A stretch of 64,000 nucleotides of DNA. It comes from an uncultured Bacteroidales bacterium (GTDB lineage Bacteria; Bacteroidota; Bacteroidia; Bacteroidales; Paludibacteraceae). A program made the translations under genes and the position numbers. The DNA is taken from NCBI GenBank assembly GCA_902800525.1, contig CADCEV010000002.1:31695-95694 (forward strand). Reading direction: 5' to 3'. The notes beneath the pieces are model-generated. The model saw only the letters and a program-made list of their open reading frames with translations. It ran no database searches and was not told where the DNA came from. Below are positions 9,708 to 62,087 of the stretch, piece by piece (the stretch's first letter is position 1; each line of letters begins with the position of its first letter).

Positions 9708-10325
9708 ATGAAACTGGTATTTGCCTCCAATAACGCGCATAAACTGTCGGAAGTGCGTGCAATCATGCCCGCCGGCGTGGAAGTGCTGAGTCTCCGAGAC
9801 ATCGGCTTTGTGCAAGAAATAGACGAAACGGGAACTACGCTCGCGCAAAACAGCTTGATCAAAGCGCAAGCCGTAATGGACTTCCTCAAGTGCCAAACAC
9901 TCAAGGACGTGGATGGCGTCTTTGCTGACGATACGGGCTTGGAAATTGACGCCCTCAACGGCGAGCCGGGCGTCTATACCGCACGGTGGGCGGAACGCGA
10001 AACAGGCATTCATCTCCCCGAAATGGAGACGTATGCCGCTAATCGCTCAAAAGCCTTGCGTGAACTGGAGGGCAAAGAGAATAGGGGATGCCAATTCAAA
10101 ACGGTCATAACCCTTATCTATACGCGCACGTACGCTGTCACGCAAGTAGAAGGTATCGTGCGCGGAGAAATAACACCTGTCGAACATGGAATAGGCGGAT
10201 TCGGGTATGACCCCGTTTTCAAACCCGAAGGATTTGATAAAACCTTCGGAGAACTGTCTCCTGAAATAAAAAATACTATTAGTCATCGCGCGCGTGCGTT
10301 GCAAGCGCTTATTGAAAAATTATGA
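9708..10325 (+). CDS. rdgB: XTP/dITP diphosphatase (RdgB/HAM1)
   Basis: Hydrolyses non-canonical purine nucleotides (ITP, XTP) to keep them out of DNA. 205 aa from the ATG at 9708; an upstream TTG inside the preceding gene is unlikely. The N-terminal FASNNAHKLSEVRAI, the DDTGLEIDALNGEPGVYTARWA core, and GIGGFGYDPVFKPEG with SHRARAL near the C-terminus are family signatures. The stop overlaps the porZ start by 4 bases (ATGA), indicating coupling. Confidence 0.96.
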   Translation: MKLVFASNNAHKLSEVRAIMPAGVEVLSLRDIGFVQEIDETGTTLAQNSLIKAQAVMDFLKCQTLKDVDGVFADDTGLEIDALNGEPGVYTARWAERETGIHLPEMETYAANRSKALRELEGKENRGCQFKTVITLIYTRTYAVTQVEGIVRGEITPVEHGIGGFGYDPVFKPEGFDKTFGELSPEIKNTISHRARALQALIEKL

Positions 10326-13300
10326 GAATGATTCGGTACATATCCGTTTGGGCATTGGGATTCCTGTGCGTGCTTCCCCTTGCAGCTGAGAATTGGGTAA
10401 CTCATTTCGCTTATAATAATGTGACACAGATTGCTATGTCGCAAGAAATGGTCTATGCCCTGTCCGATGGTAGTTTGTTCGGCGTAAACAAACAAAGCGA
10501 AAAAATAACGACCTATAACCGTTTGTCCGGATTGCATAGTACCGGCATCTCATGCATACACTATGACGAAAAAGGACAGCAACTGCTCATCGCCTATTCG
10601 AACGGAAAAATAGATATCCTGACCAAACAGGGAATGCGTTATATAAGCGATCTCTATAACAAAGATATGACGCAGCGGAAGGATATCTACAATGTCACTA
10701 TTCATGGCCGCATGGCGTACCTCTCTACCCATTTCGGAGTGCAGACATTCGACCTGCGCGAGAATAAACTGGTGGATAGTTACTGGCTTCGACCGGGCGG
10801 CTTGGAGACGCCGATTAAAGATGTAACCATCAAAGGAGACAGCATCTACGCCTTTTCAACGGATAGCCTGTATTGTGCTTCCATGAAAACCAACCTCTCC
10901 GACTACACCGTCTGGAAACGGGAACTCCGCAGTGGACGCATTGCACCGGATCCCGACAAAGGAGTACATTATAAGGACGCCAACAGCGAATGGTACGCCG
11001 GCGGAAGCGAGGGTATTATTCGTTTCAACGAATCTTCCCGTATTACCTATAAACCCCAAGGACCGGTTTCTAACGTCCCCTATCGTATTAACACGTTCGG
11101 TAAAGAAGTATGGGTGGTTCCCGGCGGAAGATGGGCTACGGAATATAAAAGATCCGGAGCTGTAATGCATTACGACGGATATAAATGGACAAACGTGGTG
11201 GCTGACAATATTAAAGCCAAAACGGGACTTCCTGTGAACGACTTCATGAATGTTGCTGTCGATCCCCGTGATCCGAAACATTATTATGTCTCCAGTTACG
11301 GTAACGGACTCTTCGAATTTCAAAACGATACGCTTGTGCGCCAATATCTTACGAATGATGGCGTGAGCACCTTGACTGCTGCGGCTCCGAACGATCCTAC
11401 AAACTACACACGTGTCGATTTGGCTCAATATGACAGCGAGAATAATCTCTGGATGTTAAACGCCGGTACAACTCCGCAAATACATTGCATCGACGTTGCC
11501 GGAAATTGGCATGCACTCCCTGAAATGCTTGATAATGCCCCCCTTAGAATGCCAACTCCAACTGGATTTATAATCGATATACATCAACCCTCCTATAAGT
11601 GGATTTCTATGGGAAGAAATAATACCGGAGTTTGCCGAATCAATGACAATGGAACAACTTGGGATAGTTCGGATGATGAAGTAATCTATCGTTCGCAATG
11701 GATTGATCAATACGGTAAAGAGTACAAACCGTTAGAGATCTATGACTTGAAGCAGGATAGCAAAGGGCGCATATGGATATGTACCAACTTGGGTTTGGCT
11801 TATCTGCCAATCAATTTGGATTTTGCCTTATCCGATGCAATCTTCTTGCCGCAAGTAATGGATAATAATGGCGAGAACCCCATGACTACAATGCCTGTAA
11901 AAACCATCTGTGAGGATAAGAACGGACAACTGTGGGTCGGAACGGATAATTTGGGTATTTATGTGCTCTCTTCGGAAGCTGATGAGATGGTGGCGCATTA
12001 CACAACCGATAACTCCGCTATGCCGGGCAATGGAATTCTTTCTTTAGCTAAAGATGAGCAAGGAATCATGTATGTCGGCACATCGGAAGGCCTCGTAAGT
12101 TATGATGAGAGTGCCTTGCCGACGGAAGATTCACGTGCTTCAAGCAAAGAGAACACTAATTATGGCAGCATGCAGCAGTGGCGGTTGCATTTCTCATATT
12201 CTGATGCTGCACAAATAGTTGGAACCGCCAAAACAATTTACGCGCGAACCAACGGGGGAGCTTTGTGGAGTTTGGATAGAGCTGATGATGCAATCACCTA
12301 TTGGAATAAAGCCAACGGCTTGAACGGATCTGCAATCTCTCAAATTGAGTATGATCAGGCCTCAGGAAAACTGATTATCGGCTATGAAAGTGGCATGATT
12401 GATCTCTTGGACGATGATTCTAAAACGGTTACTTCTATCCCCGATCTGTATGTGAAGTCCGGCTCTATCAACCGAACGATCAACAGCATTTATGCCGGCA
12501 GGAAATATACCTATATGGCTATGCCGTTTGGTATAATCGCGCTTAATGTGAAGAAAGCAGAGATAACAGATACCTATTATATCGGCTCGGAAGCTGCTTC
12601 TGTGAATGTGGAGCAAATCCTCGAATTAGGCGATTCAATCTATGCTTTTGGGGAGAATAAGATGTTCAGCGCTTCATCCAAAGACAACTTGGTGGATTAT
12701 TCCTATTGGCATCAATCATCCGTTCTCACGGACAGACTGCAAAAGGCAGTTGTGTATCGCAATGCAATTTATACCCTGCAACATGATTCGCTCTATCGCT
12801 GGGAGAATAACAAGTGGAATTTGGTTCGAACGGAAGCCTTTTCTTGGATCCATAGCAGCAACAATAAGCTGTTGCTTTGTAACGAACACCATAAGTTATT
12901 CCAACTTACAGACGATAATCAATTGGCAGGTTTGAGTGATCGTTATTATATCAATGATGCGGTTTATACCGAAGGTGAGTACTGGCTTGCTGAATCACGA
13001 TTTGGCTTGATACGCCTCAATACACAGGGGGATAACTATTATCATCCCAGTGGCCCGAATAGTAATGTCGGTTATTCGATGCACGCTGCGCATGGTCAGA
13101 TTTATTCCGCTATTGGAGGACGATGGGCTACCGAATATATCAACGATGCGCGTTTCAATATTTATGATGGAACTAATTGGCGGGGAATATCCGAGACGGA
13201 TATAGAGCCTCATATTGGTCAACGAGCTCTTGATCCGGTTTCCATTGCTGTGGACCCGAAGGATGCCGGACATTTCTATGTGGCTACGTATGGAACAGGT

Positions 13301-14398
13301 GTGTTAGAGTTCAAAGACTATCTCTTCTATAAACAACACACCTTCAGCAATAGTACTTTGCAGCCGGCTAACGCAAATGTTCCTGCTATCTATTTTACCC
13401 GAACGGACGGAGCATTAACAGACGAACAAGGTAATCTATGGGTACTCAATGTTACCGAAATTGGAAAACCTATTCACATCCTTTCGCCCGACGGAAACTG
13501 GCATGCTTCTGCTCCCACTGTAAATGGAAAACCTTTGCGCTTCTACACTCCCGGATGCACTACTATAGACCGCAGAAATAGTGAGTACAAATGGTTTCTG
13601 GATCACCGTGTGGAGACAGGTGTACTCCTCTTCCACGATAAAGGAACGCCAACTTACGGCGGCGATGACCGTTGCGTGAAACGTTCCTCTTTTGTGGACC
13701 AGGAAAATAAAACAGTTACGCCGATTTGTTTCAGAAGTTTGGTACAAGACCATGCTAATCGGGTTTGGATCGGAACGGAAAAGGGTATTATTATCATCCC
13801 TGCCGAGGTGGATTTCTTTACATCCAATCAATGCCGCCGGATTATTATTCCGCGTAATGATGGCTCTAATCTGGGCGATTATCTCTTGGGAGAAGAGCAG
13901 ATCAATTGTATGGCGGTTGACGGTGGAGACCGGATATGGATCGGAACTGAGAATTCGGGCTTGTATTTGATAGAAGACGACACCATTACCGTAGCTCATT
14001 TTACGGAGAATAACAGCCTCTTGCCGTCTAACAAAATCTTGTCTATCGCAATAGAACCGACTACAGGTGAAGTGTTTGTGGGAACGGGAAAAGGTATTGC
14101 CTCTTATCGCAGCGACGCCAGTGAACCGCAAAAGACGATGGAGAGTGCCTATGCTTATCCGAATCCGGTGCGCCCCGGATATGATGGCGTAATCAGTATT
14201 GCCGGATTGATGGATAACACTACGGTAAACATCATCGATGCTGGAGGCAACCTCGTTTGTAAGACCAAAAGCCATGGTGGAACTGCCATTTGGGACGGTA
14301 AACTGTCGGACGGACGTAAAGCTACGCCGGGCGTTTATACAGCCCTCTGCAATGCAAACGGCGGACATACTGTGGTTAAGATCTTAGTCATCCGATAA
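10322..14398 (+). CDS. porZ: PorZ-like T9SS protein, internally duplicated
   Basis: 1358 aa. After a signal peptide (residues 1-22) come two homologous halves, about 23-605 and 618-1270, each a run of beta-propeller blades. Paired landmarks are ENWVTHFAYNN / QQWRLHFSYSD, GGRWATEY in both, YGNGLFEF / YGTGVLEF, and IMYVGTSEGLVSY / EVFVGTGKGIASY. The end (about 1277-1358) is a single type IX C-terminal domain starting YAYPNPVRPGYDG. PorZ of Porphyromonas gingivalis, which acts with PorU/PorV/PorQ to attach anionic LPS to T9SS cargo, is about 780 aa with one such unit. The duplication is plain in the sequence; the name rests on the propeller-plus-CTD plan. Confidence 0.85.
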   Translation: MRMIRYISVWALGFLCVLPLAAENWVTHFAYNNVTQIAMSQEMVYALSDGSLFGVNKQSEKITTYNRLSGLHSTGISCIHYDEKGQQLLIAYSNGKIDILTKQGMRYISDLYNKDMTQRKDIYNVTIHGRMAYLSTHFGVQTFDLRENKLVDSYWLRPGGLETPIKDVTIKGDSIYAFSTDSLYCASMKTNLSDYTVWKRELRSGRIAPDPDKGVHYKDANSEWYAGGSEGIIRFNESSRITYKPQGPVSNVPYRINTFGKEVWVVPGGRWATEYKRSGAVMHYDGYKWTNVVADNIKAKTGLPVNDFMNVAVDPRDPKHYYVSSYGNGLFEFQNDTLVRQYLTNDGVSTLTAAAPNDPTNYTRVDLAQYDSENNLWMLNAGTTPQIHCIDVAGNWHALPEMLDNAPLRMPTPTGFIIDIHQPSYKWISMGRNNTGVCRINDNGTTWDSSDDEVIYRSQWIDQYGKEYKPLEIYDLKQDSKGRIWICTNLGLAYLPINLDFALSDAIFLPQVMDNNGENPMTTMPVKTICEDKNGQLWVGTDNLGIYVLSSEADEMVAHYTTDNSAMPGNGILSLAKDEQGIMYVGTSEGLVSYDESALPTEDSRASSKENTNYGSMQQWRLHFSYSDAAQIVGTAKTIYARTNGGALWSLDRADDAITYWNKANGLNGSAISQIEYDQASGKLIIGYESGMIDLLDDDSKTVTSIPDLYVKSGSINRTINSIYAGRKYTYMAMPFGIIALNVKKAEITDTYYIGSEAASVNVEQILELGDSIYAFGENKMFSASSKDNLVDYSYWHQSSVLTDRLQKAVVYRNAIYTLQHDSLYRWENNKWNLVRTEAFSWIHSSNNKLLLCNEHHKLFQLTDDNQLAGLSDRYYINDAVYTEGEYWLAESRFGLIRLNTQGDNYYHPSGPNSNVGYSMHAAHGQIYSAIGGRWATEYINDARFNIYDGTNWRGISETDIEPHIGQRALDPVSIAVDPKDAGHFYVATYGTGVLEFKDYLFYKQHTFSNSTLQPANANVPAIYFTRTDGALTDEQGNLWVLNVTEIGKPIHILSPDGNWHASAPTVNGKPLRFYTPGCTTIDRRNSEYKWFLDHRVETGVLLFHDKGTPTYGGDDRCVKRSSFVDQENKTVTPICFRSLVQDHANRVWIGTEKGIIIIPAEVDFFTSNQCRRIIIPRNDGSNLGDYLLGEEQINCMAVDGGDRIWIGTENSGLYLIEDDTITVAHFTENNSLLPSNKILSIAIEPTTGEVFVGTGKGIASYRSDASEPQKTMESAYAYPNPVRPGYDGVISIAGLMDNTTVNIIDAGGNLVCKTKSHGGTAIWDGKLSDGRKATPGVYTALCNANGGHTVVKILVIR

Positions 14399-18723: not shown

Positions 18724-19509
18724 TTATCTGTTCTTCAAACACTGGTCTATCTTCAATGCCTCTTCCAACAACTGCCTCATGTCCGCCAAACGCACTTGAT
18801 TAGCTGCATCGGAAATTGCTTTTTCTGGTTCGGGATGCGTCTCTATGAACAATCCATCTACTCCCACTGCCAACGCCGCACGCATCAAATAGGGTACCAT
18901 CTCTCTGTTTCCGCCGGTTATTCCGGCCTGTGAAGAAGGCTGTTGAACCGAATGAGTCGCGTCAAACACCACCGGACAACCGAAGCGCCTCATCTCTACC
19001 AAAGATGTCATATCGACCACTAATCGTCCGTAGCCGAAAGACGATCCCCGTTCGGTCAGCCATACATGCCCGTTCTTCGCGGCATCCGCTGACACTTGTT
19101 CTATCTTCTCGATAGCGCCTTTCAGGTCCCAAGGTGCCATGAACTGACCTTTCTTCACGTTCACAACACGTCCTGTCATAGCAGCGGCTTGCAGCAAATC
19201 CGTCTGACGGCTCAGAAATGCCGGTATCTGCAACACATCCGCCACTTCGGCTGCTGCCTTGCATTGCCAACTCTCATGCACGTCCGTCACTATCGGCAGA
19301 CCAAACTGCTCCTTCACTTCCTGCAAGATCCTGAGCCCCTCTTCCATGCCGACACCACGGTCAGATGCTGAAGTCCGATTCGCTTTGTCGTACGAAGATT
19401 TAAAATAGAGCTTCACTCCCTTCTCTTCGCAAAGACCGCAGAGCACTTCTGCCGTCTTCATGACCACATCTCTATTTTCTATGGCGCATGGCCCCGCTAT
19501 CAAAAACAT
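18724..19509 (-). CDS. kdsA: 3-deoxy-8-phosphooctulonate synthase
   Basis: Condenses arabinose-5-phosphate with phosphoenolpyruvate to Kdo-8-phosphate for the LPS inner core. 261 aa, slightly shorter than the 284 of E. coli because the N-terminus begins directly at FLIAGPCAIEN. The segments YFKSSYDKANRTS, PIVTDVHESWQ, VNVKKGQFMAPWD and VFDATHSVQQP are family hallmarks. The ATG at 19509 follows an array of 8-bp repeats (19510-19562). Neighbour of kinase, SPOR and folE genes on the same strand. Confidence 0.97.
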   Translation of the reverse strand: MFLIAGPCAIENRDVVMKTAEVLCGLCEEKGVKLYFKSSYDKANRTSASDRGVGMEEGLRILQEVKEQFGLPIVTDVHESWQCKAAAEVADVLQIPAFLSRQTDLLQAAAMTGRVVNVKKGQFMAPWDLKGAIEKIEQVSADAAKNGHVWLTERGSSFGYGRLVVDMTSLVEMRRFGCPVVFDATHSVQQPSSQAGITGGNREMVPYLMRAALAVGVDGLFIETHPEPEKAISDAANQVRLADMRQLLEEALKIDQCLKNR

Positions 19510-19563
19510 AACAATTTATCAGCTTAACAGCTTAACGGTTTAACAGCTTAACAGTTTAACGGT
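19510..19563 (-). repeat. 8-bp periodic array before kdsA
   Basis: Minus-strand units of the type CTGTTAAG/CCGTTAAA repeat about six times and end directly at the kdsA ATG. Sister arrays lie at 20880-20936, 25441-25488 and 49441-49490. Confidence 0.75.
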
Positions 19564-19565
19564 TT

Positions 19566-25202: not shown

Positions 25203-25244
25203 CACCCGCTTTCCGAAAATTCTTATTTCCGGAGACAAAAGACA

Positions 25245-25286
25245 AATGTCAATTGTCAATTATCAATTGTCAATTATCAATTGTCG
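25245..25286 (+). repeat. 7-bp periodic array before tRNA-Glu
   Basis: Alternating TCAATTG and TCAATTA units, about five, end four bases before the tRNA 5' end. Same type as the array before birA. Confidence 0.7.
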
Positions 25287-40412: not shown

Positions 40413-42233
40413 ATGGATATCATTCATTTATTACCGGACAGCGTAGCTAACCAGATAGCGGCAGGCGAGGTCATTCAACGGCCGGCGTCTTGTCTGAAAG
40501 AGTTAGTGGAAAACAGCTTGGATGCGGGAGCCAAACGCATTCAGGTGATTGTTCGCGACGCCGGACGGACCTTGCTGCAAGTAATAGATGACGGTATCGG
40601 CATGAGCGAAATGGACGCGCGTCTGGCGTTCGAACGGCATGCCACCAGTAAGATCCGCGAGGCGCAAGATCTGTTCACGCTTCGCACAATGGGTTTCCGC
40701 GGCGAGGCATTGGCATCTATCTGCGCAGTGGCGCAAGTGGAAATGACCACGCGGCGTGCAGAGGACGAGACGGGTACACTATTGGAGATCCACGGCTCGG
40801 ACGTTATTCGCCAAGAGGTTTGCAGCTGCCCTGTGGGTACGAATATCAAGGTCAGCAACCTCTTTTTCAATGTGCCGGTACGCCGTAAGTTCCTCAAAAC
40901 CGACCAAACAGAGTTGCGCAACCTGCTCACCGAGTTCTACCACATCGTGTTAGTCTATCCGAAAGTCAGTTTCACTTTCGTGCATAACGATGAGATTCTT
41001 TTGGAATTGCCCGCCGGCAGCGAGAAACAGCGCATAGAGGCGGTATTCGGCAATCCCAAACGAAATGTCTATACCTCTGCTTTTGTGGAGATTAAGACGG
41101 ATACGGAGTTGGTCAATATCCATGGATTTATCGTCAAACCCGAAAATGCAACCCGCAAGGCGGAGCAGTATTTCTTCGTTAACGGGCGGTATATGCGTCA
41201 TCCGTATTTCCAGAAGGCTGTGATGACCGCGTATTCGGGTATGTTGCCCAACGATTATCAGCCTTCATTCTTTATCTATTTTGATATCTCGCCGGAAGCG
41301 ATTGATGTCAATATTCATCCTACCAAAACCGAGATCAAGTTCGCCGACGAGCAGATGATTTTCCAAATTCTCATGGCGTGTGTGCGTGAGGGTTTGGGTA
41401 AGTTCACGCTTGCTCCGACGATTGATTTCGATAATCCTTCCACAATCGACATTCCTCTGCCGAGCAACGGACCTGTCTCTCGTCCGCAGGTGGCAGTTGA
41501 TCCGACCTATAACCCTTTCCATACTCGTAACACGATTTATCCGGACAAAGTGCCGACCCATTGGGAGAGCCTGTATGAGGGTTTGCAAGGCGAGAAACCA
41601 GCGCCGAACGTTCCGGTTTTTCGGGAAGATCCGCTCTTCGTAGAACCGGAGGTACTCAAATCGGAAGATGTCGAATCCTGTCCGTTATGGCAATATAACG
41701 GCAAATACATCCTTGTCCCAAGTGCGAACGGGCTTGTGCTGATAAACCAGCATCGCGCGCATTCGGCGGTTTTGTATGCGCAGTTCATGGAGCAGCTGAC
41801 GCATACTCAAGGAGCTTCCCAGCAGTTGCTTTTTCCGGAAGTGCTGGAATTGTCTCGGGAGGAAATGATTCTGATGAGCCAGATGCAGGGGGACTTGCAT
41901 GCCATCGGTTTTGATATAGCGCAACTGAGCCCGGACAGTTTCTCTATTCAGGGTATTCCTGCGCAGTTAGCGAATCAGTCGGCTATTCCTGTGCTCCAGC
42001 ATATAGTGCAGCAGGTGCGCGAGCGCGAGGCGGATACCCAACGCGAATGGCAGGAGCAGATAGCCCGTGCGTTGGCGCAAAGCGCAGCTATTCCTTACGG
42101 TCAGACACTGACAGAGCAAGAGATGCGCGACTTGGTCACCCGCCTTGTCCAGTTAGACCATTACCGCCGCACGCCGGAAGGAAAAATTATCCTTTCGCTC
42201 CTCGGCGACGAAGAGATAGCCAAGAGGTTTTAA
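40413..42233 (+). CDS. mutL: DNA mismatch repair protein MutL
   Basis: 606 aa. The N-terminal GHKL ATPase shows ELVENSLDAGAKRIQV, DDGIGMSEMD, and FRGEALASI, with FVNGRYMRHP and DVNIHPTKTEIKF in the second domain. The C-terminal dimerisation domain (about 425-606) lacks the DQHAxxER endonuclease motif; the equivalent reads NQHRAHSAVLY. The end ACAQSAAIPYGQ-like region carries no zinc-site Cys. Endonuclease activity is therefore doubtful, although most non-enteric MutL proteins have it. It couples mismatch recognition by MutS to strand repair. Confidence 0.95.
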   Translation: MDIIHLLPDSVANQIAAGEVIQRPASCLKELVENSLDAGAKRIQVIVRDAGRTLLQVIDDGIGMSEMDARLAFERHATSKIREAQDLFTLRTMGFRGEALASICAVAQVEMTTRRAEDETGTLLEIHGSDVIRQEVCSCPVGTNIKVSNLFFNVPVRRKFLKTDQTELRNLLTEFYHIVLVYPKVSFTFVHNDEILLELPAGSEKQRIEAVFGNPKRNVYTSAFVEIKTDTELVNIHGFIVKPENATRKAEQYFFVNGRYMRHPYFQKAVMTAYSGMLPNDYQPSFFIYFDISPEAIDVNIHPTKTEIKFADEQMIFQILMACVREGLGKFTLAPTIDFDNPSTIDIPLPSNGPVSRPQVAVDPTYNPFHTRNTIYPDKVPTHWESLYEGLQGEKPAPNVPVFREDPLFVEPEVLKSEDVESCPLWQYNGKYILVPSANGLVLINQHRAHSAVLYAQFMEQLTHTQGASQQLLFPEVLELSREEMILMSQMQGDLHAIGFDIAQLSPDSFSIQGIPAQLANQSAIPVLQHIVQQVREREADTQREWQEQIARALAQSAAIPYGQTLTEQEMRDLVTRLVQLDHYRRTPEGKIILSLLGDEEIAKRF

Positions 42234-48698: not shown

Positions 48699-48806
48699 GT
48701 GCATTGTAAATTGTGCATTGTGCATTGTGAAAATTTGGCTTGCCAAATAATCGTGCCCTTTAGGGCTAAGAATTGTGAATTGTGCATTGTGAATTGTGAA
48801 TTGAAA
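48699..48806 (+). repeat. 7-bp array and AATAATCGTGCCC repeat upstream of rnpA
   Basis: TTGTGCA and TTGTGAA units in 7-bp register, interrupted by AATTTGGCTTGCCAAATAAT (palindromic) and GCCCTTTAGGGC (palindromic). The same composite recurs at 49496-49603. The array runs into the TTG start of rnpA. Confidence 0.75.
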
Positions 48807-52249: not shown

Positions 52250-52310
52250 GCCACTCTCGCGCCACTCTCACGCCACTCATTGTGCATTGTGCATTGTGCA
52301 TTGTGCATTG
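52250..52310 (+). repeat. 11-bp array followed by 7-bp array
   Basis: Three 11-bp units of GCCACTCTCGC type (52250-52282), then about four TGTGCAT-type 7-bp units (to 52310). Intergenic. Confidence 0.75.
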
Positions 52311-52440
52311 TTTTCGCCCCTCTTTCGCGGGTCTTTCGGGATGTCAAATCATTTTTTGAAACATTTTTCCTCATTTTATGGAGACAAATTGACGGAAATA
52401 TGCAACAAACTGCCAAAATACCCATTTTTGCTAACTCAAA

Positions 52441-52621: not shown

Positions 52622-53058
52622 ATGAAAAACATTTTGACTTCGATTGCCCGTGAGGGTAATGCGGAGGGATTTTCAAACACAAGGGAGGGTATTTCGCAGC
52701 ATGAAGCCTTGATTATTGCAGAGCAATTTTCGCAAGTACGCGCATCGCGATTGGATGGTGTGCCCGTAACAAATGGTTGGATGCTCACACCGAGCGAAGA
52801 CCGAGCGAAGACCGAGAGAAAAGCAACGGTCGCGTATACCTTTGCAATAACCTTGGTGTGGTAAATGATTTGAGTTAGGAGATGCGGCAAGAGTTGGATA
52901 ATATCTACAATGCAATTGGGGCATTGAGTATCAAATATCAAGAGCCGCCAAAGAAAGACAAACCGAATCCTGTAGGTTTTGCTGCAACCGAGACGGAGTT
53001 GGAGTTGAACTTTGCGGTACTAAAGGTTAAACATACCATCAAACGCAAAAAGAAATAA
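52622..53058 (+). pseudogene. Broken small gene with 11-bp frame-switching repeat
   Basis: An ORF of 80 codons (MKNILTSIAREGNAEGFSN...) ends at 52864. A second open stretch in another frame, 58 codons from ATG 52882, ends at 53058 (MRQELDNIYNAIGALSIKYQEPP...FAVLKVKHTIKRKKK). Between them is an 11-bp array (52790-52822). Deleting one 11-bp unit joins the first frame to SNGRVYLCNNLGVVNDLS, which runs to a TAG at 52876, six bases before the second ORF and in its frame. So this looks like one gene of about 145 codons, broken by an extra repeat unit and a nonsense codon. The family is not recognised. Confidence 0.55.
52790..52822 (+). repeat. 11-bp array at the frame break
   Basis: CCGAGCGAAGA twice exactly, then CCGAGAGAAAA. 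The 11-bp unit is not a multiple of 3, so each gain or loss changes the frame. Confidence 0.85.
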
Positions 53059-54323: not shown

Positions 54324-57300
54324 ATGAAAAATTTATTTACCAATTTGATGAAAAACACAGCGAAGAGAACCCAAAATACAGGGGGGGGGGCTTCGCAATG
54401 TCAGACATCGCGATCTGAAGGTGCGCGGCAAATTACTGCGCGATTTGAAAGTGCGCAAATGAAAACCACATCTCTTATTTCGGGTTGTAGTGCCTTAGAT
54501 GTTCCGATGCCGTCATACGGAGCATCCGATGAGCATCCGATGAGCACCCGATCAGCATCCGATGGAAGAAGGTGGAACTCTCGTGGATGGAAGTATGTTG
54601 CCTGCATGCTGATGGTTCTTTTTATGGGTGTTGGTAATGTGTGGGGAACTCCTACAGGAGTAGATGCCTATTATAAATGTACCAAACCCTCTTCTGATGT
54701 GATTTCAAACGTTACTCCCACTACCGGAGATGGAACATATTTTTCCGCATATTCAGCGCCAACTAAGACTGCAGGGTCTTTTGCACAAAATGCTGATACA
54801 CTTCGATTGAATGTACCTGCATCTACCAATGCAACGCTGTCTTTTACTTATACCGCAAAACAAGCTATTAGTATATCATCTTTTCGTATTTATGCGACGA
54901 CGAGCTCTGATAAGATAAAGACAGCAAATATATCATATACAGGAAATAACACAGGAGTGTCTAAAACATTTTCTAAAGGCGCAAAGGATTTAAAAACGTC
55001 ATACATTGATGTCGAACCTGCAAGTGATATAGAAATTGCAAAAGACGGAACATTCACCATTAATATAAACTTGTCGAATACAGACGGATCGAATGAACGT
55101 AATTTGCGTATGTATCGCATAACACTTAATGTTTCGGCAGCAGGTGGTGGCGGTGGAGCGACGACATATGATGTGAATATTGCGGATCTATTGAACGGAA
55201 GTATAACCGCAAGTCCGACATCGCAGGAAGAAAGGGAAGATGTTACATTGACAGTTAGCCCTAGCACCGGATATGAGTTGAGTGGAGACATTTCAGTAAC
55301 AGGAGATGAGAGTGGCGATAATATTACTGCAACAGATAACGGTGATGGTACATGGACGTTTGAAATGCCGGGAGAAGATGTGACGGTTGATGCAAGTTTC
55401 TCCCTAATTGATTATAGTGTATCCAAGACACTGACTTACTGCGCAGTTAAAGACGGTAGCACAGCTATTCCTTTAACAATGAATTACGGTGGTGATCTTT
55501 CAACGACCATAGAACCGTTAAGTGGATATTTATTGCCGAGTTCTATTACCGTATCCGGAGTGACGAGTTACACATGGAACGCACTTACCGGTGCATTAAC
55601 GCTAACGGATGTAACAGGAAACGTATCTATTTCTATCGTAGCTGCGACTCCCCAAACGGGCTCTGGAGCTACGGTAACCTATGCAATGGTTACTTCCGGC
55701 TCAACGGCAGCCACTTATTCAACGGGAGTTTTCACCGGCATATTAAGTGGCGGCACTTCGAATAAAAATACGCTGGTGGCATCCAATACATTGAGTGGTG
55801 GTAATGGCGTTGGTGTGCAAAGTGATAAGACCACCCCAAAGAGTTCAAGAACGGCAGGTATTACCAGTAGCACAGGCGATTTTAGTGCCGGTTCGTCTCC
55901 GTACGCAGAATTTACGTTTGATGTGGTAGATGGATATACCTTTACGCCCACGGCGATAAGTGTGCCGGTATTGGCTATTACAAATAATGCTTATTTCACC
56001 GCAATAGTTACTGATGGTAGCAGCACATGGACATCAGCGACTTCAGAGTGTCCCCAAGGAGAACAAGCAACTATCAATGCAACTCCTTCAGGCGGTTCGG
56101 CACTGACAGGTACAGTTAATATTCGCGTGTTCTGTCATAACCAAGCAAAAGCAGCTAAAGGTTTCCGTATAGGAACAGGCAGTGTTACTATTACCGGAAC
56201 GGTGGCTGCGGAAACTCCCGCATGTTCAGCACCGACGAGTCCGAGTGTGACATCGACGAACTGGATTTATGTGCCGGGAGAGGGGATAGAGCTGACGGCA
56301 TCAGCAACAGAAACAGATGCTTCAACGACCTATACATGGTATAAGGGTGCGACATTAGAAACAGCAAAGGCAGCAGGTGCCATTCAAGCGGCAATGACTT
56401 CTGCGGAAGGCGGTACGACTTATTCGATTGCTTCATGTTCGGCAAGTGACGCGTATAGATATTGGTGTGTGATCAGTAACGGCACAGGATGTGAGGCTTC
56501 TGCTTCGTATGATATTAAGATATACAAGTTCTATTTGTATGATAATACCGGAGGCGATGTCAGCAACACAGCGTTTACAACTATAGATCGCACTAATAAA
56601 AAAATATCCGTAGATGTGGCACTTGCCAACGCTGCTTATACCTACCAATTCAAAGTAACAGACGGAATGGGAACATGGTACGGAAAAGATGAAACCACTA
56701 TCACAAGTGGTACTGCATATGCGGATGGTCTTACGTCTAGCGGAGCTAATGTTGGTTTGACAAGCACAGGCGGAGGTTGTGATTATACGATAGAATATTA
56801 TTACAACTCTAACAATGTAGTTGTGACCTATCCTGCTACCACCTACGATATCACGCATAGCGCTGCTAGTAATGGTTCATACACTATTCAGATAGGTTCG
56901 GGCGCTGCTGTTAGTACAGATACAAAATCGTGTGACGGTTCAACCATTACTTTAGCCGCAACACCAAATTCGGGATATAGTCTCAGCAGTTGGAGTGTAA
57001 CGGAGACAGACGGTGGTGATGATGTGGACATGGCTACAGCTAATACATTTATTATGCCAGCCAAAGATGTTACGGTAGGAGCAAGTTTTGCCTGCGTAAC
57101 TCCGACCTTTGGGACGAACTTGAGCACAAGTCAAGTGGATTATGATAAAAATGCATCGGCAAGTGCGTTGACAGTAGCAGCGACAGCAGGTGGTGGAACC
57201 GTGACATACCAGTGGTATAGCAACGATGAGAATAATACCGATTCTCCGACAACTTTGACTAATTGTACAACAGCTACTTACAATCCTTCGACGGCAGCAA

Positions 57301-60300
57301 CAGGTACAACCTATTACTACTGCGTTGCAACGAATAGTACGGCCGGTTGTTCTACAACAGCTACTTCCAATATCGCTAAGATTGTTGTTAGCGAAACATC
57401 TTATACGGTAACGTATGATGCGAATGGTGGAAGTAGTGCACCGAGTGATGGTACCGGCACAGACATCACACTGGATGATGGTAGTGGTATGACTCCTCCG
57501 AGCGGATATACATTTGCAGGATGGAACACCAATGCAACAGGAACCGGTACCGGTTATGCGGGCGGAACAACAAGCATCAATGCTAACCTTTCCTTGTACG
57601 CTATATGGAAACCGACAACAACTTGTGCGGACGGATACAGCCATGTATATAGTTACTATGACTCACGCCGTTTGGTGAATGGTAAGCGTTACAATGCTAT
57701 TGAGACCACCACTTGGGGTTCTATCTCTAATGGCACATCCCTTCCGCATACGGCTATTTCCGGTCTGACGAGCGTTGTACTTACGAAAGGCTGTCAAGCA
57801 GAAGATAAAATAGAAGCCGGTTATCCATGGATTAACTCCTATATCAAAGTGGATAAAAAATCCAATACAACCGGAGCCGGTATAACCATCACGGTAGCCA
57901 GTGGATATGTGGGAAAATTGAAAATCAGAGCCGGTGGCTATAGCGGAAATGCAAGCATCTGGAATAACGGTACACAAGTGGTAGGTGCTACTTCCGGAAA
58001 TGCGACAAGTCAAAATGCGTTCACTGAGCAAACGATAGATTTGGCAACAGGTGCTAACCTCATCCAGTTCGATGGAAATAACGCTTATGTCTCGCATATA
58101 GATGTGAAACTTACGCAACTATATACATTGACGTTGGATAAGAACAATAGTGATGCAAGTGGTTCGACGAGTGGTTCGGCATATGTGTCACCGAACGGTA
58201 CCTCCTTCGTAAGTGGTTTCACTGCTCCGACACGTACGGGTTATGATGTGGAGGGCTACTATGGTGAGGCAGGTTGCACAACCAAGATTGCTACCGCTGC
58301 CGGTGCTTTGCAGGCAAGTAAGTCTGTCAGTGAAGTTGAATACACTAACAGTAGCAGTCAATGGACCAAGGGTAGCGGTGCGACATTATATGCTAACTGG
58401 ACACCAGCAGTATATAATATTACGTACAAAGACTGTGGCGATGTTTCCTTCTCTGGTGTTCATGGAGATGGTTATCCAACCACGCATACCTATGGCACAG
58501 CAACTGCTTTAGTTGATCCGACAAAAGAAGGATGTGAGTTCCTCGGTTGGTTTACTGATGCAGCCGGAACATCTTCTGCAGGCGCTTCAATTGGAGAGAC
58601 TGCCAGAACAGCAGATTTTACACTTTATGCTAAATGGGGTGTAACGATAGATGAAAGTGACTTCTATCAGTTATATGCAATGGAAAGCAAGACCCGCGAT
58701 CAACTGATAACAGCGGCATCGCTTCCATCTTACATTTCTACAAATATTACAGCAGATGCGGCCAATAACACATTTGCATCCGCTCCAACGCTGACAACAC
58801 CACATGATTTCTCAGCTATCGGAACGACAAAGAACTATCATATTAAGACAGCTAATGCAAATACGATTACTATTACTGCTGTTGCTAATGTAAAGACTAT
58901 TCGCCTCTATGGTTACGGTTCAAGCAAAACTGTTACTGCAACGGCCATTAACCAGTCCGGTGGTAGCAATTTGAGCATATCAAACGGAACAATCAATGCC
59001 AGCAGTAATGTAGTTGAAGCATCGTTTAACATCTCCGGTGCAAGCGGATACTCATCATCCGCATATTACACAATTACATTAACATTCCCCGGTGATGTTC
59101 ATTTGTTTGGTGTTTATATAGAAACTGCTTCTGTATACCCTGTAACAGGTGTTTCGCTCAATAAGAGTTCGACGACACTGACAGAAGGTGACACAGAGCA
59201 ACTGACGGCGACGATAGCACCGGCTAATGCAACCAATAAGGGGCTGACTTGGACATCAAGTAACACCAGTGCTGCAACCGTTTCTTCTGCGGGTTTGATT
59301 ACTGCTAAGGCTGAAGGTGAAACAACTATCACCGTCACTACCTCCGACGGATCCTACACCGCAACCTGCGATGTAACCGTTGAAGCATTTAGTTGTGCTA
59401 AGTTTGCCGGTAAGATATTTGACTTAACGGTAACAACGTCAAGTGCCAGTTATACTATTGGTGGCGGAACGGAACAGAGTTTATCCAGCGATGCAACCAT
59501 CATGGACGATTGTAGTGCTTACATGGGTAAGTTAGGTAGTTCTACCAGTGCAGGTTGTATAAGTTCAACAAAACTGAAACTGGATGTAAGTAGCAATAAT
59601 GATAAATATGCTAAAATCACCCCCAAATGCGCATTGCGTAATGGAGATGTGATTAGTTGTACCGGTTCTTCTCAAGAGATAGCTTTCTCGACTACTAAGG
59701 GAAAAGTAACCGCTCCGAAGACAAGTAGTTATAGTTATACTGTTACTCCGGGTGATGGTTTGGCAGGTGCTACCACGATTTATGTTTGGGGAGCAACAAG
59801 CAGTGCAACAGTTGCTACATTGACCATCACTCGTCCGACATCCTATGTAATGACCTACAATCCGAATGGTGGTCGTGACGAGGTAGAAGCAGAACGTTTT
59901 GCAGCGGGCGCAAACACATTGACTACGGACGTGCCCACGCGCGCAGGTTATATATTCAAGGAGTGGAACACATCCGAGGGAGGAGATGGTACAGGCTATG
60001 CTCCGGGTGCAGCCTATACAATGGGATCTGCTGATGCAGAATTGTATGCTAAGTGGGTAGCACCAACTGCTGGTGAGATGGTTTATGCTTCTGTGATTAT
60101 GACCGGAAAAAATACAGCAACAACTGTAAATGGAACCGGTTTGGTTTCTAATGTTGGGCAAAATGACGATACTGATAATACCGGTTATAAACTGAACAGC
60201 ACGTCAAGTTGTTATTTCGGTATAACATTGACTAATGGTAATTTCAAAGAGAATGATAAGATTGTAGTAGATGTAGTAGCAAAAGGAACGACGTTGGATT

Positions 60301-62087
60301 TGTGCAAGGCAACGGATGGAGCATCGTTCTATCAATTCACAAGTCTCACAAACGGGACAGATTATAAGGGTGATAATGCACTACAAATGACGATTACTTC
60401 TGATATGGTTAATCCGAGTGGTTCAGTAAAACTTACAAACACGGTAGCCATTAAGCGTACAGGGTCAGCGCCGTTTAATATATCGCACTTTGTACGTTCC
60501 ATAAAAGTATATCGTGAGATATGTCCGGGCTGCATGGCTATAAAGAGCGGTGTAACCACATGGAGTACGACAGCAAGCGATTGGATTGGTCAGGATGGTA
60601 CGGCTGCGGCTATGCCAGGAATAGATGACGTGGTATATGTGGATAAGAATATAACTCTTTCGGATGCAGCGAAAGCAAAAGATGTCATCCTTGGTGATGG
60701 TGGGAGCCTGACGATTGAACCAACAGGAGGTTTGGTGGTAGCCGGAACGGTAACAAAGTCCGGCGGTTCTGCTACAACTCCGAGCGATCTGGTAATTGAG
60801 TCCTCCTCCGCCGGCACGGGTGCATTGATAACGGGCGAGCGGAGTACAACAACACAAGCAACGGTAGGATTCTACACAAAGGCTATCCAAGATGCGGAAC
60901 GCGGATATGTGAACCAATATATAGGTATTCCGTTCAGTGGTATTACTGCTTACGACAGATTCTATGACACGTATGTATATGAGTACATAGCATCTTCCAA
61001 TGCATGGTCGCCATTAACCAATAACGGTGAAATGAGTCCGTACACGGCTTACAACCTGATGCGTGACGAGGATACCGAAACGACGCTATATTCCGGCGGT
61101 ACGCTGGTATTACCGGGTACGGCTGCTGAGTACAAGGATCATGACTTGACGCTGACCTTGCGTAATGCTTCGGCAACGACGACGAACATGTTCGCTAACC
61201 CCTACACGGCCCCGATTGATATAAAGGCTATGGAGGAAGGTGACTTCACGGGTGTTGATGCGACGATCTATCTCTTCAATTCAGGATCGAAAGAAGATGT
61301 GAAAAACCGTGATAGACAAGACGGAAGTGGTGCAGGTCAATGGTTGGTACTGCCGGTAACATCGGTAGCTGAGACTCCGGAATATTATGCAGTGACAACT
61401 ATTCCTTCGCAACAGGCGTTTATGGTGAAGGGTAATAGCGGTAACGCAACGCATAAAGTGACGCTTGATTACAAAAAGCATGTCTATGACCCAGCGAAGA
61501 CAAGTGGTGCAACCATCAACCCTGCTCGTGCTCCGAAACGTGTTAGCGAAGAGACGACGTTGGAGACGATGAACCTAACCGTCCAAGGCTTAGGCGGTGC
61601 ATCCGACCGTGTACTGATGTTTATGCGCGAGGACTTCTCAATCGGCTTCGATAACGGTTGGGACGGACGCAAGATGAAGGGTAAGACCTATGCTCCATAC
61701 TTGTACGCCGCAACGGATGACGGCAAGATGGCGGTTAACTCGATTCCGACAGCCGAAGGAACGGTTCTGGGCTTCAAGGCCGGCACAGAGGATAACTACT
61801 ATACCTTCTCGTTTAATTATAATGGCGAAGATATCTGGTACCTCAATGACCTTAAGGAACAGAAGAGCACGCTTATCCATGCGGCTGAGACCTATGAGTT
61901 TGTGGCTGAACCCGGTGATACGGAGGCACGGTTCGTAATCTCGGCTACGCCTATTCATAAGATTACAACAGGCAATGAGAGTGCAAGCGCTGAGGCTGCA
62001 AAGGTACGCAAGCTCATTATTGATGATAAGGTATACATCATCCGCGGAGGACGTATGTATAGTGTAGATGGACAGATGATTAAGTGA
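54324..62087 (+). CDS. Giant T9SS-type surface protein with InlB/Listeria-Bacteroides repeats
   Basis: 2587 aa. The first 88 residues are polar and repeat-rich and are followed by the export signal GWKYVACMLMVLFMGVGNVWG (about 88-108). The body has divergent beta repeats (PGEDVTVDASFS near 355, PAKDVTVGASFA near 915), Listeria-Bacteroides repeats (VTYDANGGSSAP...GWNTNATGTGTGYAGG near 1027; GCEFLGWFTDAAG near 1410; MTYNPNGGRDEV...EWNTSEGG near 1843), and a BIG2 Ig-like domain (VTGVSLNKSSTTLTEGDTEQL, about 1605-1690). The last 40 residues (KVRKLIIDDKVYIIRGGRMYSVDGQMIK) look like a short type IX C-terminal signal. A G10 tract at codons 20-23 and an 11-bp array at codons 66-80 precede the signal. 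Probable adhesin. Confidence 0.88.
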   Translation: MKNLFTNLMKNTAKRTQNTGGGASQCQTSRSEGARQITARFESAQMKTTSLISGCSALDVPMPSYGASDEHPMSTRSASDGRRWNSRGWKYVACMLMVLFMGVGNVWGTPTGVDAYYKCTKPSSDVISNVTPTTGDGTYFSAYSAPTKTAGSFAQNADTLRLNVPASTNATLSFTYTAKQAISISSFRIYATTSSDKIKTANISYTGNNTGVSKTFSKGAKDLKTSYIDVEPASDIEIAKDGTFTININLSNTDGSNERNLRMYRITLNVSAAGGGGGATTYDVNIADLLNGSITASPTSQEEREDVTLTVSPSTGYELSGDISVTGDESGDNITATDNGDGTWTFEMPGEDVTVDASFSLIDYSVSKTLTYCAVKDGSTAIPLTMNYGGDLSTTIEPLSGYLLPSSITVSGVTSYTWNALTGALTLTDVTGNVSISIVAATPQTGSGATVTYAMVTSGSTAATYSTGVFTGILSGGTSNKNTLVASNTLSGGNGVGVQSDKTTPKSSRTAGITSSTGDFSAGSSPYAEFTFDVVDGYTFTPTAISVPVLAITNNAYFTAIVTDGSSTWTSATSECPQGEQATINATPSGGSALTGTVNIRVFCHNQAKAAKGFRIGTGSVTITGTVAAETPACSAPTSPSVTSTNWIYVPGEGIELTASATETDASTTYTWYKGATLETAKAAGAIQAAMTSAEGGTTYSIASCSASDAYRYWCVISNGTGCEASASYDIKIYKFYLYDNTGGDVSNTAFTTIDRTNKKISVDVALANAAYTYQFKVTDGMGTWYGKDETTITSGTAYADGLTSSGANVGLTSTGGGCDYTIEYYYNSNNVVVTYPATTYDITHSAASNGSYTIQIGSGAAVSTDTKSCDGSTITLAATPNSGYSLSSWSVTETDGGDDVDMATANTFIMPAKDVTVGASFACVTPTFGTNLSTSQVDYDKNASASALTVAATAGGGTVTYQWYSNDENNTDSPTTLTNCTTATYNPSTAATGTTYYYCVATNSTAGCSTTATSNIAKIVVSETSYTVTYDANGGSSAPSDGTGTDITLDDGSGMTPPSGYTFAGWNTNATGTGTGYAGGTTSINANLSLYAIWKPTTTCADGYSHVYSYYDSRRLVNGKRYNAIETTTWGSISNGTSLPHTAISGLTSVVLTKGCQAEDKIEAGYPWINSYIKVDKKSNTTGAGITITVASGYVGKLKIRAGGYSGNASIWNNGTQVVGATSGNATSQNAFTEQTIDLATGANLIQFDGNNAYVSHIDVKLTQLYTLTLDKNNSDASGSTSGSAYVSPNGTSFVSGFTAPTRTGYDVEGYYGEAGCTTKIATAAGALQASKSVSEVEYTNSSSQWTKGSGATLYANWTPAVYNITYKDCGDVSFSGVHGDGYPTTHTYGTATALVDPTKEGCEFLGWFTDAAGTSSAGASIGETARTADFTLYAKWGVTIDESDFYQLYAMESKTRDQLITAASLPSYISTNITADAANNTFASAPTLTTPHDFSAIGTTKNYHIKTANANTITITAVANVKTIRLYGYGSSKTVTATAINQSGGSNLSISNGTINASSNVVEASFNISGASGYSSSAYYTITLTFPGDVHLFGVYIETASVYPVTGVSLNKSSTTLTEGDTEQLTATIAPANATNKGLTWTSSNTSAATVSSAGLITAKAEGETTITVTTSDGSYTATCDVTVEAFSCAKFAGKIFDLTVTTSSASYTIGGGTEQSLSSDATIMDDCSAYMGKLGSSTSAGCISSTKLKLDVSSNNDKYAKITPKCALRNGDVISCTGSSQEIAFSTTKGKVTAPKTSSYSYTVTPGDGLAGATTIYVWGATSSATVATLTITRPTSYVMTYNPNGGRDEVEAERFAAGANTLTTDVPTRAGYIFKEWNTSEGGDGTGYAPGAAYTMGSADAELYAKWVAPTAGEMVYASVIMTGKNTATTVNGTGLVSNVGQNDDTDNTGYKLNSTSSCYFGITLTNGNFKENDKIVVDVVAKGTTLDLCKATDGASFYQFTSLTNGTDYKGDNALQMTITSDMVNPSGSVKLTNTVAIKRTGSAPFNISHFVRSIKVYREICPGCMAIKSGVTTWSTTASDWIGQDGTAAAMPGIDDVVYVDKNITLSDAAKAKDVILGDGGSLTIEPTGGLVVAGTVTKSGGSATTPSDLVIESSSAGTGALITGERSTTTQATVGFYTKAIQDAERGYVNQYIGIPFSGITAYDRFYDTYVYEYIASSNAWSPLTNNGEMSPYTAYNLMRDEDTETTLYSGGTLVLPGTAAEYKDHDLTLTLRNASATTTNMFANPYTAPIDIKAMEEGDFTGVDATIYLFNSGSKEDVKNRDRQDGSGAGQWLVLPVTSVAETPEYYAVTTIPSQQAFMVKGNSGNATHKVTLDYKKHVYDPAKTSGATINPARAPKRVSEETTLETMNLTVQGLGGASDRVLMFMREDFSIGFDNGWDGRKMKGKTYAPYLYAATDDGKMAVNSIPTAEGTVLGFKAGTEDNYYTFSFNYNGEDIWYLNDLKEQKSTLIHAAETYEFVAEPGDTEARFVISATPIHKITTGNESASAEAAKVRKLIIDDKVYIIRGGRMYSVDGQMIK
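54381..54390 (+). repeat. Ten-G homopolymer in the surface-protein gene
   Basis: Ten consecutive G residues, codons 20-23 (Gly-Gly-Gly-Ala), upstream of the export signal. In the present state the frame is open. Confidence 0.9.
54520..54563 (+). repeat. Four 11-bp units in the surface-protein gene
   Basis: GAGCATCCGAT twice, GAGCACCCGAT, CAGCATCCGAT. Encodes the ASDEHPMSTRSASD stretch and is read in three frames in turn. Confidence 0.88.

Follow-up and report, generated by a model that had tools for sequence, protein, structure and literature searches.

A poly-G tract between short inverted arms in the leader of a giant surface-protein gene: a probable contingency element nearly restricted to one Bacteroidales genus

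The stretch of DNA analysed here (the window, 64,000 nucleotides) comes from the genome of an uncultured Bacteroidales bacterium, available as 33 contigs of 2.39 Mb, window included. It holds an open reading frame for a giant protein of 2,587 amino acids. Residues 1-90 of this protein are polar for the most part and are followed by a core resembling a signal peptide. An inverted-repeat poly-G element and an array of 11-bp units are located in this leader, and an apparent second leader, now decayed, lies upstream. The features are the following:

54324..62087, plus strand: ORF of the giant surface protein, 2,587 amino acids, ON (in frame) in this assembly
54360..54396 (G000:C2:86054-86090), plus strand: inverted-repeat poly-G element of 37 bp, GCGAAG-N15-G10-CTTCGC, found by pattern search
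54360..54365, plus strand: left arm, GCGAAG
54381..54390, plus strand: G10 tract, the proposed frame switch
54391..54396, plus strand: right arm, CTTCGC
54480..54602, plus strand: 123-bp stretch holding the array, with giant genes from two further species (G139, G103) matching it end to end at 95% and 93%
54520..54563, plus strand: four units of the 11-bp repeat GAGCAYCCGAT, GAGCATCCGAT / GAGCATCCGAT / GAGCACCCGAT / CAGCATCCGAT, a copy of a dispersed block
54594..54647, plus strand: signal-peptide-like hydrophobic core YVACMLMVLFMGVGNVWG, ending in GVGNVWG, residues 91-108, judged from sequence
52622..52864, plus strand: apparent decayed second leader, an 80-codon ORF (MKNILTSIAREGNAEGF...) with the same module order as the giant-gene leader
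52661..52697, plus strand: apparent relic of the element with an interrupted poly-G, recognized by eye
52789..52820, plus strand: 11-bp array ACCGAGCGAAG of the decayed leader

The giant protein carries Listeria-Bacteroides repeats (List_Bact_rpt, PF09479 / TIGR02543), which place it in the class of surface proteins with such repeats, together with Big_2, divergent InlB B-repeats and Ig_3 domains. A protein search of named genomes returned four distant matches, limited to the repeat domains, in one Atopobiaceae and one Collinsella genome. The window also encodes PorZ of the type IX secretion system (T9SS; 10322-14398), so that such a system is likely present, and the giant protein is probably exported through it. 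Because a profile search of the protein gave no match to the recognised T9SS sorting domain TIGR04183, this export route is one that we infer. PorZ, the List_Bact_rpt repeats and BspA-type matches together point to Bacteroidales. MutL is encoded in the window as well (40413-42233); mismatch repair is thus not obviously missing. The ORF of the decayed leader starts with MKN and stops without a signal peptide. Elsewhere in the window, largely between ORFs, short arrays are numerous; their units measure 7 bp (CAATTGT-like, CATTGTG) or 8 bp (TAACAGTT-like), and examples are found at these sites:

25243-25285: short array
48770-48803: short array
52278-52311: short array
19509-19565: short array

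A preliminary description of this DNA had placed the G10 run (codons 20-23) and the 11-bp array (codons 66-80) between the ATG at 54324 and the signal peptide, and had stated that a change of one G or of one 11-bp unit breaks the frame. Both positions are confirmed. Early stops in the other two frames bear out the second statement, since the first stop is met 8 and 22 codons past the G tract; past the array the distances are 23 and 14 codons. Such early termination is what is looked for in a contingency locus, as is a repeat unit not divisible by three in or near the 5´ coding region, which is also present. A run of at least eight G occurs once in the 64 kb, and 5 of 100 shuffled sequences reach as many matches. 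The G run alone is marginal by this comparison, and the argument therefore rests on recurrence.

The pattern used to find further elements, GCGAA-N(4-34)-G7+-N(0-14)-TTCGC, fixes the arms by its own definition. In the genus it gave 130 hits (counted by hand) at 129 places in 75 of 178 genomes, with one hit for the mirrored control. Among 180 genomes from 32 other genera of the family, three contain it (4 hits; control 1), and in the order outside the genus it is found in 7 of 390 genomes (8 hits, counted by hand; control 1). The element is nearly restricted to one genus. Besides the copy in the window, the genome of this bacterium has one at C7:46056-46096, where a protein with an AraC-type domain starts. 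Leaders carry the element in both orientations, with either the G-rich or the C-rich strand in sense, which points to a DNA element and not to a conserved Gly-Gly-Gly peptide. At single loci an assembly error may lie behind the poly-G tract, but against this the element recurs across many genomes.

The arms GCGAA/TTCGC surround 13 of the 16 listed G/C runs of at least eight, including all 10 in giant-gene leaders; the remaining three (L176, L177, L178) are poly-G without arms. L216, a leader without the element, matches L239 at 90% identity as far as GCGAAT and is still open. In predicted folds the arms, which the search required, pair in 71 of 81 distinct elements, and the bases beside them show no covariation of the kind that a hairpin predicts. 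As the arms are imposed by the search and adjacent bases do not covary, we make no claim of an RNA hairpin. Three further tracts of the window's own genome were noticed. A G11 run without arms (L025:4159-4169 in G000:C3, minus strand) lies in frame in a type I restriction specificity ORF (PF01420) and is a candidate for another contingency locus. Two G9 tracts, L025:7718 (G000:C3) and L027:2167 (G000:C21), lie in a common context, ATGGGGGGGGGTAAAATTAGA, which may be one more repeated element.

For 82 of the 129 places the element was read in its genomic context. In 35 it is ON, with an in-frame ATG and a long ORF; in 14 it is OFF, that is, a long ORF follows but no in-frame ATG precedes the tract; in 33 no long ORF lies downstream. 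The 14 are an upper estimate, as L026, L279, L294 and probably L175 may start past the tract: an AraC-type domain is present in L026, whose relatives L277 and L295 can be aligned with L279 and L294, and L175 is similar to L026 by position. The elements without a long downstream ORF comprise 13 inside ORFs, mostly near the 3´ end (the class being defined by fewer than 150 remaining codons), and 20 intergenic ones, 16 of which have the 5´ end of a gene within 400 bp, a figure for which no random expectation is at hand.

The length of the element differs between these classes. It is exactly 37 bp in 26 of the 35 ON cases, versus 1 of 14 OFF and 2 of the remaining 33; OFF elements and those lacking a long ORF range from 35 to 42 bp. 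The 26 ON elements of 37 bp contain G7 (1), G8 (22), G9 (1) or G10 (2), and they occur in both orientations and in two reading phases. When the ON element lies at most 60 codons from the first ATG, 25 of 31 measure exactly 37 bp and 24 of 31 have exactly G8.

A Pfam-type scan covered 17 of the 49 proteins adjoining ON or OFF elements, in addition to the window's own. It revealed InlB-type repeats, BspA-type LRR_5, fn3, MBOAT, Acyl_transf_3, GNAT, Gate and AraC-type regulators, and one protein (L315) is a type I restriction specificity subunit (hsdS); the proteins of L276, L298, L319 and L320 had no Pfam match. Phase variation commonly affects genes for surface proteins, acyltransferases and restriction, and less often those of the Gate, GNAT and AraC types.

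Between alignable element loci, the number of G is unequal in 15 of 29 pairs (a hand count in which loci are shared among pairs). The clearest pair is L300/L329, both MBOAT acyltransferase genes: the tract is the sole gap of the aligned 440-bp window, and one gene is ON (G9), the other OFF (G10). The elements of L306 (OFF) and L336 (ON) are identical save one tract base, with 440-bp windows just 56% alike, and the two may be paralogs. Two further OFF leaders retain G8 and differ by one base next to the tract: L337, compared with L338, L339 and L239 (all G8), and the giant-gene relative L151/L087, compared with its own relatives. The window's own tract can be aligned across species with a single relative, L135, which has G8 versus G10 here, both elements being 37 bp long. 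The giant gene of the window itself is ON in the one assembly.

Whether the tract can act on the frame depends on where translation starts. GVGNVWG at the end of the core served as a handle for related leaders, through a degenerate pattern that describes the DNA of the signal-peptide end and in which the leader itself plays no part. This pattern matched in 78 of 178 genus genomes (reversed control 0) and yielded 113 leader sites, of which 110 were analysed; L153 and L259, whose frame is fused with an upstream ORF, and L209, which contains Ns, were set aside. In 106 of the 110, the window's included, an in-frame ATG is located 16 to 158 codons ahead of the core end. The first residues are MK or MR in 71 of these 106 leaders and MKN or MRN in 22. 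In 37 leader pairs, which are non-independent and include the core, substitutions at codon positions 1, 2 and 3 number 209, 178 and 299, and pN/pS amounts to 0.58 in prefixes versus 0.26 in the few alignable mature parts (again non-independent pairs). The third-position excess and the ATG kept in nearly all leaders favour translation from before both tracts. The prefix thus appears to be read, yet loosely constrained, and in some relatives it is almost absent. The possibility that translation starts past the tracts, at ATG 54459, 54507 or 54540, leaving the prefix untranslated and the tracts without effect, would draw on three in-frame ATGs (residues 46, 62 and 73), of which the third is inside the array. 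Given the ATG and codon-position data we give it very little credence.

The four OFF leaders in this set are L143, L151, L204 and L218. A G or C run of at least eight lies between ATG and signal peptide in L151 and L204, and an 11-bp array in L143 and L218; L151 has an array too, and its ATG frame terminates right after the tract. In L204 (G014) the signal-peptide leader is out of frame past a C9 run beside GCGAAT, possibly a further OFF element outside the strict pattern. In the pairs L179/L224, L161/L265 and L156/L250, leader and signal peptide are 89-98% identical, with mature parts at about 40% that are seemingly unrelated. By this comparison leaders look like exchangeable cassettes.

The 11-bp array has a different character. 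A 15-mer of its unit gave 21 genome matches with up to 2 mismatches, several of them in the same arrays, versus 1 for the reversed control, and is thus well beyond what chance would give. A search with the leader DNA gave matches in 57 of 151 genus genomes, mostly at the array and mostly in intergenic positions. The own genome has arrays at three further places, and its copies of the window's block count 4, 5, 4 and 2 units. We read 39 array copies, located by similarity to the window and hence biased toward similar ones. Four units are present in 33 of them, and 2, 3 or 5 in the rest; the four-unit form makes up 25 of 30 copies outside open frames and 8 of 9 inside them, and 12 copies share an identical 44 bp. 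Among 107 leader-region alignments there are 9-nt gaps and no 11-nt gap, local alignments being liable to stop at a long gap. The number of units is therefore not variable between copies in the manner of a contingency locus, and the hypermutability that the preliminary description attributed to the array finds no support. It looks like an inherited dispersed block that happens to be translated within the leader, and is probably no switch here. The four-unit block is also found at L023:6839-6939, L032, L035, L042 and L047. It adjoins an ORF that may encode a REP-associated Y1-type transposase, and in several species it directly follows a small conserved ORF (KKAKAEHPTAKAFAELMAE...).

Arrays of this period are nevertheless a feature of leaders at large. 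Leaders contain tandem arrays (95 in 17.3 kb) at about 19 times the density of the mature parts (5). Of the 95, 62 have period 11 and 4 more have period 22; upstream, period 11 makes up 6 of 35 arrays, and in mature parts none of 5 (leader versus upstream: Fisher p about 1e-6, relatedness ignored). Sixty of the units, transcribed manually, group into 24 sequence families, and leaders such as L228, L206 and L211 display many different unit sequences. Since 11 is not a multiple of 3, a cause at the protein level is unlikely. Could the array, then, be a second, independent hypermutable switch whose slippage also toggles the frame, as was first proposed? Its unit does shift the frame into the stops noted above, period-11 arrays cluster in leaders, the own-genome copies show that length is not absolutely fixed, and L143 and L218, half of the OFF leaders, have an array and, by eye, no G/C run of at least eight there. 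Against this stand the nearly constant four units, also outside open coding frames, the identical 44-bp copies and the alignments free of 11-nt gaps. Moreover, a period-11 or -22 array is present in 52 of 106 leaders (of 110, those shorter than 40 nt were left out), so that two OFF leaders of four with an array are no excess. We regard two independent switches as quite unlikely.

Two other explanations concern the G run itself. It might encode an invariable Gly-Gly-Gly linker in the leader peptide: several giant proteins contain peptides of the type T-GGG-[NA]-S, and most leader tracts are G8. But the element is also read in the C-rich sense (N-T-P-P) and in other frames, lies between genes and in hsdS and MBOAT genes, differs in tract length in about half of the alignable pairs and occurs in out-of-frame states, all of which makes a linker very unlikely. 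A more serious competitor is a binding or recombination site with half-sites about three DNA turns apart, in which the poly-G would be a length-tuned spacer and effects on the frame secondary. Spacer sequence and position of the G run vary, and the total of 37 bp holds in most ON elements from G7 to G10, over both orientations and two reading phases. The missing covariation next to the arms and the closeness of intergenic elements to gene starts suit such a site as well. The tract of meningococcal nadA is a promoter tract, unlike the many elements here that lie in coding sequence. It offers a published parallel insofar as, in the accessible part of the report, a variable repeat lies between two sites in Neisseria meningitidis; these are operators bound by NadR, where we have candidate sites (PMC2791445). 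On the other side, the 35-42 bp of OFF or ORF-less elements speak for loose spacing, the arms are imposed by the search, and OFF frames tied to tract length directly fit frame switching. A protein site as the main function is, in our judgement, rather unlikely.

We consider it likely that the 37 bp form a contingency element nearly restricted to the genus, with the G10 as its variable part, and that the array is probably no switch. This reading draws on the anatomy of the element, its recurrence, unequal G numbers among relatives at other loci that carry it, the presence of both ON and OFF frames in assemblies, and the stops in the other frames. The element would sit in the translated leader of a giant surface protein, probably exported by type IX secretion. 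Strand slippage at the G run would alter tract length, presumably in a reversible manner, and length modulo 3 would set whether ATG 54324 shares its frame with the signal peptide and with a mature part of roughly 2,480 residues. At OFF lengths a stop would be met within 8 or 22 codons, and the G10 of this assembly would be ON. We infer in this way that the gene at 54324-62087 itself switches and that its product is displayed on the surface.

Several observations run counter to frame switching. Tracts of ON elements near the start are uniform, and with 4 OFF leaders among 110 found by their signal peptide, the set is more ON-biased than free switching predicts. At L151/L087 and L337 the OFF state goes with a base difference next to an unchanged G8, part of the OFF calls may be starts past the tract, the single G10 is not significant against shuffles, and poly-G without arms exists (L176-L178 and the hsdS G11). 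Still, comparison with relatives makes the switch at the G run appear well supported. The contingency design seen in the preliminary description thus finds support for the G run (recurrence, gene classes, length differences between relatives, ON and OFF states in assemblies) and none for the array. The same applies to its suggestion that the polar prefix acts as the switch: translation of the prefix is favoured and the role of the G run is backed by comparison, whereas the array's part is unsupported.

Intragenic poly-G/poly-C contingency loci are described, in the portions of the literature available here, from Campylobacter, Helicobacter and Neisseria, with the same in-frame G mononucleotide tract, ON/OFF frameshifting and host-interaction genes (PMC6321876, PMC4965091, PMC2823697, PMC3786947). 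Our tract differs from these proteobacterial loci in that it lies inside an inverted-repeat element of about 37 bp, used in both orientations in one Bacteroidales-type genus. We know of no comparable flanking arms around proteobacterial tracts. Gut Bacteroidales possess invertible promoters and within-gene inversions, which, as far as the main text describes them, likewise combine inverted repeats with phase-variable surface genes; the words 'slipped', 'homopolymer' and 'tandem repeat' are absent from that text (PMC12632263). Here the variable part is a homopolymer instead, and an unsystematic look noticed no invertible segment. The TMECO intrastrand-triplex repeats of Escherichia coli are also short, dispersed, G-rich and structured, with a consensus of 37 nt, but this consensus differs from ours and TMECO are, according to the accessible text, always intergenic (PMC4666352). 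Two reviews, in their accessible parts, present phase variation in Bacteroides and gut Bacteroidales as DNA inversion. A literature search of openly available main texts found no description of the poly-G element or of the 11-bp leader arrays. What is new are the arms around the G run and the near-constant distance between them in ON genes.

Tentatively, and leaning towards doubt, we may go one step further. GCGAA-polyG-TTCGC could be a dedicated contingency cassette of the genus, with a putative arm-binding protein that raises slippage or spreads the element. Many unrelated genes for surface proteins, acyltransferases and restriction would have received it, in one or the other orientation, at their starts, in their upstream regions or at their ends, and the outcome would be modular, genus-wide phase variation, unlike plain homopolymer tracts. 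The conserved arms raise the question of whether the sequence around a homopolymer controls its slippage frequency. One pattern would supply more than 100 candidate switchable loci, directly testable in existing metagenomic reads. If our reading is true, a poly-G cassette with fixed arms, matched in 75 of 178 genomes, would give these bacteria a switching system based on slippage, alongside the one based on inversion.
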